Source: Leptospiraceae bacterium (GTDB lineage: Bacteria > Spirochaetota > Leptospiria > Turneriellales > Turneriellaceae). Taken from it: a stretch of DNA of 34,720 bases. The stretch is taken from contig JANWWS010000005.1 of assembly GCA_025055765.1 (NCBI GenBank), positions 1 through 34,720 on the forward strand. The letters run 5' to 3'. The notes below the pieces were generated by a model. It was not told where the DNA came from, did no database searches, and worked only from the letters and a program-made list of their open reading frames with translations. Both the position numbers and the translations under genes were made by a program. Of this stretch, positions 21,410 to 23,565 are shown piece after piece. Positions within the stretch are counted from its first letter, which is position 1. The number at the start of each line of letters is the position of its first letter.

Positions 21410-21952
21410 TTAAAAGTAAAATCCGACGTGAACATTCCAGCCGAGCCCTGATAGATCGTATACAACGGAGCGGGCAAAATGTTGCACATTGTAGCGGGCT
21501 TCCACATCCAAGAAAAAGGCACCCCAAAAGTAGAAGGTAACCCCCCCGTGCAGGGATGTACGTGCAAAAACCCCATTTCCCGCAACGGGGTAATCTATGT
21601 AAAGAAACCCTCCATCCCCTCCTAGATATATGTCCAAAGCAGAACGAGGTAAGATATGGAGGTCTCCCCCTAGAGTAAAAGGGATATATGTTGTCCCTTG
21701 AGGGGAGGCCATAGCATAGCCTGTTTCCCCCCGAATGGCAAAAAAATCCGTAACTAGATATTGAAAGCGACCCAAGAGGAGCCCAAAGTTTCCTGTAGAA
21801 GATCTCTCCTCGCCATAACCAAGAGATAATTTCAGCACATGTCGTTGAATTCCGTTATATTCGGCTTCCTGAAATTGGTTATAGCGGACATCTTGGGCGG
21901 CAAGCAAACCAACAAACAAGAAAAAGATGACACCAGAAACCCTGGCCAGCAT
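21410..21952 (-). CDS. Small outer-membrane beta-barrel protein
   Basis: A 180-residue protein with a signal peptide (VSGVIFFLFVGLLAAQ, cleavage near Ala19). Amphipathic strands include HVLKLSLGYG, LLLGRFQYLVTDFFAIRGETGYA, LDIYLGGDGGFLYIDY and FFLDVEARYNVQHFA. It ends GWNVHVGFYF, with the C-terminal phenylalanine expected of BAM substrates. The size suits an eight-strand barrel. It leads the operon with two lipoprotein hydrolases, which could mean a shared outer-membrane function. TTGACA lies exactly 34 nt upstream of the ATG; no ribosome site is seen. Confidence 0.7.
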   Translation of the reverse strand: MLARVSGVIFFLFVGLLAAQDVRYNQFQEAEYNGIQRHVLKLSLGYGEERSSTGNFGLLLGRFQYLVTDFFAIRGETGYAMASPQGTTYIPFTLGGDLHILPRSALDIYLGGDGGFLYIDYPVAGNGVFARTSLHGGVTFYFWGAFFLDVEARYNVQHFARSVVYDLSGLGWNVHVGFYF

Positions 21953-21980
21953 AATCTAACGTTCGTTATAGATGTCGTAT

Positions 21981-21986
21981 TGTCAA
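21981..21986 (-). promoter_or_regulatory. Candidate -35 box TTGACA, 34 nt before the barrel gene
   Basis: Minus-strand TTGACA begins at 21986; the ATG begins at 21952. No good -10 is found at a 16-18 base spacing (TATAAC is only 10 bases away). Confidence 0.35.
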
Positions 21987-22000
21987 ATCTTTTCTCATCG

Positions 22001-22016
22001 TAAGCTGCCATGCTTA
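22001..22016. repeat. Inverted repeat TAAGC-N6-GCTTA
   Basis: A perfect 5-bp-arm inverted repeat whose right arm is the first of three TGCTTA copies upstream of glnA. It is about 71 bases before the -24 element, suitable for an activator dimer. Confidence 0.35.
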
Positions 22017-22056
22017 AAAAAAATCCTGTATGCTTATTTTTTAATCATATTGCTTA
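22011..22056 (+). repeat. Three TGCTTA repeats at exact 20-bp spacing
   Basis: TGCTTA occurs at 22011, 22031 and 22051, each followed by an A or T tract. The phase is about two helical turns. The location, about 60-100 bases before the predicted sigma-54 start site, suits enhancer sites. Confidence 0.4.
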
Positions 22057-22062
22057 TTTTTT

Positions 22063-22068
22063 TATAAT
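22063..22068 (+). promoter_or_regulatory. Possible sigma-70 -10 box upstream of glnA
   Basis: A perfect TATAAT with only a weak -35 (TTTAAT at 22040, 17-base spacer). It could supply basal glnA transcription, like the dual promoters of enterobacterial glnA. Confidence 0.25.
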
Positions 22069-22086
22069 AAAGTTTGATCTTATCTG

Positions 22087-22102
22087 TGGCACCGGAATTG
22101 CA
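22087..22102 (+). promoter_or_regulatory. Sigma-54 (-24/-12) promoter of glnA
   Basis: TGGCAC-N5-TTGCA matches the RpoN consensus at every core position, with GG at 22088-22089 and GC at 22100-22101 in the required spacing. Transcription would begin near 22113, leaving a 28-base leader with AAGGAG. This indicates nitrogen control through an NtrC-type activator. Confidence 0.85.
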
Positions 22103-22128
22103 TGGAAATGTGGCAAATTTCACCGAAA

Positions 22129-22134
22129 AAGGAG
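22129..22134 (+). promoter_or_regulatory. glnA ribosome binding site AAGGAG
   Basis: AAGGAG lies six bases before ATG 22141 and decides that start over ATG 22102, which falls inside the -12 element. Confidence 0.8.
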
Positions 22135-22140
22135 TCAAAA

Positions 22141-23565
22141 ATGGAAGCAGGATCACCCAAGGAATTGCTTGAGAAAATCAAGTCAGAGAATATCGAGTTT
22201 GTGGATGTGCGCTTCACCGATATGCTGGGCACAATGCAGCACTTTACTATGCCTGCCCACCAAATTGGAGAAGAAGCGTTTTCTTATGGGATTGGCTTTG
22301 ACGGCTCTTCTATTAGGGGTTGGAAGGCCATTAACGAATCAGACATGATCGCACGCCTTGACTACAAGTCGGCCTATATTGACCCCTTTTTCCAACATAA
22401 GACCCTGGCTGTCATTGCTGACATCTATGACCCAAAAACAGAAGAGCCTTACAACCGAGATCCCCGGTACATATTAAAAAAGGCTGTTGAGTATATGAAA
22501 TCTACTGGGATTGCCGACACGGCATATTTTGGCCCAGAGGCTGAGTTTTTTATTTTCAACAATGTGCGCTTCGATCAGACCATGAACAATGGCTTTTACT
22601 TTATTGATTCTGACGAAGCTGTTTGGAACATGGGGCGCGATGAACAACCTAACCTAGGTTACAAAATTCGCAAAAAAGAAGGTTATTTCCCACTTCCGCC
22701 CTCTGACCAGTTTCAAGATTTACGTTCGGAAATGCTGCATACTTTGGAAAAAATGGGCATTAAGACTGAAAAACACCACCATGAGGTAGCCAATGCCGGC
22801 CAGGCAGAAATTAATCTCGTGGTGGATGAAGTCTTACGCATGGCTGACAAAATGCAGCTATACAAATATGTGGTCAAAAATGTAGCGCGTCAGGCCGGAT
22901 TTACAGCTACCTTTATGCCGAAACCTATCTTTGGTGACAACGGTAGTGGAATGCATACCCACCAGTCTCTTTGGAAAAATGGCCAAAACCTGTTTTATGG
23001 CAACAAATATGCCAATCTCTCCGATCTTGCCTTAAATTACATTGCTGGGATATTGAACCATGGACCGGCCCTTTTGGCTTTCACCAATCCCACAACCAAT
23101 AGCTACAAGAGGCTTGTCCCAGGTTTTGAGGCTCCTGTGAACTTGGTCTACAGTGCGCGCAACCGTTCGGCTTCCATCCGGATTCCCGTTGCTGTGGTAA
23201 ACACACCAAAAACACGCCGCATTGAATTCCGCACCCCAGATCCTTCTTGCAATGTATACACCGCTTTTGCTGCGATGATTATGGCTGGCCTCGACGGCAT
23301 CCAAAATAAAATGGATCCTGGCGAACCATGTGACTTCAACCTCTATGAAGCTCCTGATGAGGTCAAGGCCAAAATCCCCGCTGTGCCCGCCAATTTAACT
23401 AAAGTACTTGATGCGCTAGAGAGAGACCATGCCTGGCTTACCAAAGGTGGTGTCTTTGATGAAGACTTCTTGCAAGCCTATATTAGCTACAAGCGAGCTG
23501 AGGTCGAGCAAATAGTTAACCAGAGACCCCATCCCTACGAGTTTGTCCTCTACTACGACTGCTAG
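22141..23565 (+). CDS. glnA: Glutamine synthetase type I
   Basis: Makes glutamine from glutamate, ammonia and ATP; a cytoplasmic dodecamer. From ATG 22141 it is 474 residues, the GSI size. Motifs include FDGSSIRGW (53-61), metal-binding FGPEAEFFIF (130-139), the ATP region KPIFGDNGSGMHTHQSLW (261-278), TNPTTNSYKRLVPGFEAP (315-332) and NRSASIRIP (341-349). NLYEAP places Tyr402 where E. coli GSI is adenylylated, suggesting the GSI-beta type, though no GlnE gene is in view. It is a single-gene unit with a sigma-54 promoter and an intrinsic terminator. Its last 50 bases are overlapped by the opposing EamA gene. Confidence 0.97.
   Translation: MEAGSPKELLEKIKSENIEFVDVRFTDMLGTMQHFTMPAHQIGEEAFSYGIGFDGSSIRGWKAINESDMIARLDYKSAYIDPFFQHKTLAVIADIYDPKTEEPYNRDPRYILKKAVEYMKSTGIADTAYFGPEAEFFIFNNVRFDQTMNNGFYFIDSDEAVWNMGRDEQPNLGYKIRKKEGYFPLPPSDQFQDLRSEMLHTLEKMGIKTEKHHHEVANAGQAEINLVVDEVLRMADKMQLYKYVVKNVARQAGFTATFMPKPIFGDNGSGMHTHQSLWKNGQNLFYGNKYANLSDLALNYIAGILNHGPALLAFTNPTTNSYKRLVPGFEAPVNLVYSARNRSASIRIPVAVVNTPKTRRIEFRTPDPSCNVYTAFAAMIMAGLDGIQNKMDPGEPCDFNLYEAPDEVKAKIPAVPANLTKVLDALERDHAWLTKGGVFDEDFLQAYISYKRAEVEQIVNQRPHPYEFVLYYDC

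Follow-up and report, generated by a model that had tools for sequence, protein, structure and literature searches.

In Leptospira, EbpA, an activator with two GAF domains, acts with RpoN to activate amtB, and glnA is a predicted target of the pair (PMC12655853). EbpB is a receiver-type second activator in this genus, while the saprophytes have EbpA only (PMC12655853; PMC5243855). No fixed-distance dyad has been described for Leptospira EbpA-RpoN in the literature covered here. NtrC enhancers in E. coli can act from widely differing distances, as far as 15 kb away, according to work cited in PMC4641369. GAF activators of the FhlA/NifA type with a Fis HTH use TGT-N10-12-ACA inverted repeats, which in Clostridiales mostly lie 100-250 bp upstream (PMC6615313), and the form TGY-N11-RCA is common to FhlA, NifA, and NtrC enhancers (PMC6615313; PMC8743547).

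The glnA locus analyzed here lies in a 34,720-nucleotide stretch of a Leptospiraceae bacterium genome, referred to as the window, and shares features with all three of these systems. Like EbpA-RpoN of L. interrogans and L. biflexa, it involves a two-GAF AAA+ HTH activator, a sigma-54 promoter before amtB, and an apparent nitrogen role, but where L. interrogans has EbpA plus the receiver-type EbpB, the EbpA-like protein is here the only intact activator. Like the NtrB/NtrC-controlled glnAp2 of Escherichia coli, it combines glnA with a sigma-54 promoter and, upstream, a 17-bp dyad with the pattern TGC-N11-GCA. It differs from glnAp2 in having no receiver-domain activator, another dyad sequence, and a distance that in most promoters does not vary by even a base pair. 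With FhlA/NifA-type enhancers it shares the GAF-type activator, the Fis HTH, and a TGT...ACA-like inverted repeat, yet unlike the Clostridiales sites the dyad here begins 56 or 36 bp ahead of the -24 element. We consider it likely that the sigma-54 promoter of glnA is driven in nitrogen shortage by the EbpA-like activator bound at this dyad, and that the activator serves a small regulon. The promoter and gene have the following parts:

22087-22102, + strand: sigma-54 (-24/-12) promoter of glnA, TGGCAC-N5-TTGCA, TGGCACCGGAATTGCA; pattern match, kept in relatives
22113, + strand: predicted transcription start of glnA, placed by sigma-54 geometry 12 bases past the GC of the -12 element
22129-22134, + strand: glnA ribosome-binding site AAGGAG
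22141-23565, + strand: glnA, encoding a type I glutamine synthetase of 474 aa (TIGR00653, 654 bits; Pfam Gln-synt_N and Gln-synt_C)

A preliminary description of this DNA had claimed an RpoN consensus core with correct spacing upstream of glnA, and this holds: TGGCAC-N5-TTGCA is matched exactly and occurs once in the window, against a mean of 0.04 in shuffles, and the GG and GC of the -24 and -12 elements are ten bases apart within TGGCAY-N5-TTGCW. The glnA start codon is the ATG at 22141. The same description had rejected the ATG at 22102 as the start, rightly so, since that codon lies upstream of the predicted transcription start and a 92%-identical glnA in a relative starts at the codon equivalent to 22141. 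Its 28-base leader is also correct in length, counted from 22113, but does not end in AAGGAG, which stops 6 nt short of the ATG. The closest named relatives of this glnA belong to Leptospirales/Leptospiraceae metagenome bins, and the window probably derives from a Turneriella-like branch within the leptospiral class. A search of the leader against Rfam found no credible RNA element, the bxd_4 match reaching half its gathering score.

Sites comparable to the glnA promoter were found in most relatives. Of 29 glnA upstream regions, 22 contained a sigma-54 site with a score of 25 or more out of 30, a score reached by 4.3% of random 150-bp windows, so that the comparison proposed in the preliminary description came out in favor of the promoter. 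In the relative whose glnA is the closest match (92%), CTGGCACGCCGCTTGCT stands at a different distance from the ATG and downstream of a tpiA-like gene, and this change of distance and neighbors indicates that the promoter survived a change of neighborhood. The gene upstream of glnA in several relatives is one we take to be tpiA; in the window (21410-22141) that neighborhood is lost and an unknown divergent gene lies upstream of glnA. One genome of the order (G003) has one glnA that resembles that of the window but lacks a sigma-54 site, and a second glnA with such a site.

The genome carries one copy of rpoN, as the preliminary description had predicted, with the AID, CBD, and DBD domains all present (Pfam); the ABC ATPase encoded by the neighboring reading frame upstream is presumably LptB. 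Neither rpoN nor a strong bEBP was found in two relatives, G007 (99% complete) and G009, and no sigma-54 site was found at the glnA of G007, at either glnA of G009, or at the amtB genes of the two genomes. Sigma-54 sites at amtB are present in G008, G010, and G011, which belong to the same genus. The joint absence of rpoN, the GAF-type activator, and the glnA and amtB sites from G007 and G009 amounts to a natural loss of the whole pathway. Dependence of the glnA promoter on rpoN is thus supported by the presence of rpoN, by conservation, and by the loss of the sites in relatives lacking rpoN.

A candidate sigma-70 promoter near glnA, at 21927-21955, matches 10 of 12 bases and was rejected as chance level, 0.7 such sites being expected in shuffles. 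This weak site is the one point in favor of an explanation in which TGGCAC-N5-TTGCA is a chance match and glnA is transcribed from a sigma-70 promoter. We regard that as extremely improbable, because the sigma-54 promoter is kept across genera with differing flanking genes, correlates with rpoN, and is linked to the dyad described below. The glnA promoter is a genuine sigma-54 promoter, ordinary in kind.

Seven proteins in the genome match Sigma54_activat. The strong match (241 bits) is a 703-aa protein of GAF-GAF-AAA-lid-HTH_8 organization with the Walker A sequence GESGTGKE and the GAFTGA motif (G000:C26:69926), and it is the sole intact bEBP in the genome, having two GAF domains, an AAA+ domain, and a Fis HTH without a receiver domain. 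An intermediate match (84 bits, 520 aa; L008:904-2466, G000:C3:82268-83827) has an intact Fis HTH but neither Walker A nor GAFTGA, and no receiver match. The other five score at most 32 bits and resemble other AAA+ proteins. Judged by these domains, the sole intact activator is EbpA/FhlA-like rather than NtrC. The degenerate bEBP is conserved as a paralogue across the order (homologues L184-L192), with more distant homologues even in the rpoN-less G007. It is apparently catalytically dead, and since homologues persist in G007 it probably functions independently of sigma-54.

The preliminary description had also predicted nitrogen-responsive control through an NtrC-like activator, to be sought as an NtrB/NtrC pair. 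A perfect sigma-54 promoter at glnA is indeed a textbook NtrC target, and the class-level relatives G018-G024, most of which have more than one strong activator, do carry further intact bEBPs, about 450 aa long. A profile search of the genome, 99.4% complete in 50 contigs, found no receiver-domain Sigma54_activat protein that could be NtrC, which contradicts such a pair acting from NtrC boxes unless ntrC lies in the missing 0.6%. Given this completeness and fragmentation an activator could be missing, yet the same lone type recurs in close relatives: G002-G006, G008, G010-G012, and G014-G017, all of the same order, each have a single strong activator, about 700 aa long. As for orthology with L. 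interrogans EbpA (LIC_10132), the comparison covered proteins of the class-level relatives G018 and G019, which are 41-42% identical to the activator over their length. Direct reading of 21941-22087 upstream of glnA found no NtrC box TGCACCA-N3-TGGTGCA, and the dyad consensus TGYTTA-N5-TAARCA differs from this NtrC consensus (PMC8743547). Activation of glnA by NtrB/NtrC is therefore very unlikely, and of the earlier prediction it is the nitrogen-responsive part that remains plausible, not NtrC, the only intact bEBP being GAF-GAF.

The plausibility of nitrogen-responsive control of glnA comes from companion sigma-54 sites before amtB-glnK and a second amtB. TGGCAC-N5-TTGCW occurs 6 times in the 2.51-Mb genome, against 1 match for a reversed-pattern control. 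The reading of all six as promoters was rejected, since four lie inside ORFs; the two intergenic sites precede glnA and an amtB operon. Relaxing the pattern to TGGCAY gives 14 sites, 5 of them intergenic, which precede glnA, amtB-glnK (TGGCATTTTCTTTGCA), a GAF-SpoIIE-TPR phosphatase gene with amtB2, and the genes for a beta-barrel porin (bbp2) and a circularly permuted ATP-grasp protein. A version allowing one mismatch has more than 200 matches in the genome, too many for individual sorting. From this distribution of sites, the regulon in this genome appears to consist of these five transcription units.

The gene for the GAF-SpoIIE phosphatase with TPR overlaps the start of the second amtB and has a perfect sigma-54 site in front (L128:3864-6993, G000:C49:241863-244992), an arrangement that represents a possible link of partner-switching signaling with ammonium transport. 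Perfect sigma-54 sites together with dyad-like elements also stand before the bbp2 porin (PF07642; L132, G000:C6:47095) and ATP-grasp (PF14403; L135, G000:C37:67001) genes, which are candidate nitrogen-regulated genes.

Upstream of the glnA promoter lies a set of repeated elements:

22011-22016, + strand: third TGCTTA half-site, one 20-bp step farther out than the dyad, at 76 bp before TGGCAC
22031-22047, + strand: 17-bp dyad TGCTTATTTTTTAATCA, predicted site of the GAF-type activator, starting 56 bp before TGGCAC
22051-22067, + strand: second, weaker dyad copy TGCTTATTTTTTTATAA, one 20-bp step closer in, at 36 bp before TGGCAC; relatives again show sites at -36

The hexamer TGCTTA begins at 22011, 22031, and 22051, an exact 20-bp spacing, and the predicted dyad centers at about -74 (22039) and the weaker site at about -54. 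Elements resembling TGCTTA, TAAGCR, or TGTTTA are common to the five promoters of this genome and, with one exception, missing from intragenic control sites. Seventeen sigma-54 promoters from eight genomes of the order went into a 17-bp motif model with dyad symmetry; its consensus is TGYTTA-N5-TAARCA, and the glnA copy reads TGCTTA-N5-TAATCA. In 13 of the 17 promoters the best site begins exactly 56 bp ahead of the T of TGGCAY, and in the rest 35, 36, or 45 bp ahead of it; in shuffled sets no more than 3 sequences have a position in common. The same dyad was recovered de novo from random 17-mers with a total score of 283, compared with 143-155 in shuffled sequences. When the model was trained without the window's genome, all five promoters of that genome fell in the top 1% of random windows.

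A second approach combined TG..TA.....TA..CA with a fixed gap and GG-N9-TGC and was run over 25 genomes. This fixed-distance pattern gave 15 matches, against 1 for the reversed control, and 14 of them are complete sigma-54 promoters (TGGCAY or CGGCAT plus TTGC), even though the pattern left most of these bases free; the fifteenth, in G005, is chance-like. The matches include glnA and amtB in several genera. One is a sigma-54 promoter before the gene for a 201-aa ACT-domain-like protein (L247, G003:C100:23736), which presumably resembles the C-terminal part of GlnD. Among promoters outside the model, the best site fell within 1 bp of -36, -56, or -76 in 7 of 14 (binomial P about 7e-5, optimistic since the sequences are related), and no shuffle reached this result. 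In genus g6 of the same family, which has the same activator, the dyad was not found. The recognition helix of the g6 activator is NRVTLDKKI instead of NRLTLD(R/K)KI, a difference of sequence that fits a shift of specificity and proves nothing.

What the sequence itself shows is the promoter together with rpoN, one intact activator, and a dyad held at a fixed position. The simplest reading of these features is that the activator binds the dyad, as suggested by the TGY-N11-RCA form, the company of sigma-54 promoters, and the presence of a single intact activator. RNA polymerase with sigma-54 would sit at 22087-22102 as a closed complex, while the GAF-GAF-AAA-Fis HTH activator would bind at 22031-22047, aided by the weaker copies 20 bp to either side. 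The activator presumably responds to nitrogen status, its GAF domains sensing the signal, and in nitrogen shortage it would open the promoter with ATP by way of its GAFTGA loop. This one activator together with sigma-54 would serve glnA, amtB-glnK, GAF-SpoIIE/amtB2, the bbp2 porin gene, and the ATP-grasp gene.

An alternative accepts the sigma-54 promoter but has the dyad bound by another protein, notably the degenerate bEBP (C3:82865) as repressor or co-activator, with the EbpA-like activator acting from elsewhere. The degenerate protein has its intact Fis-type HTH and co-occurs with the dyad at the genome level, but the survival of homologues in G007 makes a sigma-54-independent role probable, and the dyad accompanies sigma-54 promoters and has the known form of a bEBP enhancer. 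We consider this alternative improbable and prefer binding by the intact activator. More tentatively, and with some doubt on our part, the enhancer may be locked to the promoter in this order. The published enhancers lie at variable distances, so that a constant distance is unusual and hints at a set geometry, in which a GAF-type activator held in one helical register (centered near -74 and in some cases -54, at 20-bp intervals) would make a set contact with sigma-54 instead of acting through flexible looping; the dead bEBP paralogue might join the same complexes.

The fixed-distance dyad is a newly recognized motif, and together with a single GAF-type activator it probably constitutes a variant on sigma-54 control of glnA. 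Sigma-54 enhancers are known for acting over flexible distances. A predicted enhancer that keeps one base-pair distance in front of different genes in several genera makes the contact geometry between activator and polymerase testable, and the two relatives without rpoN, activator, and sites provide natural controls. For the lineage itself, core nitrogen assimilation appears to run on sigma-54 and a single GAF-domain activator, with no NtrC involved.
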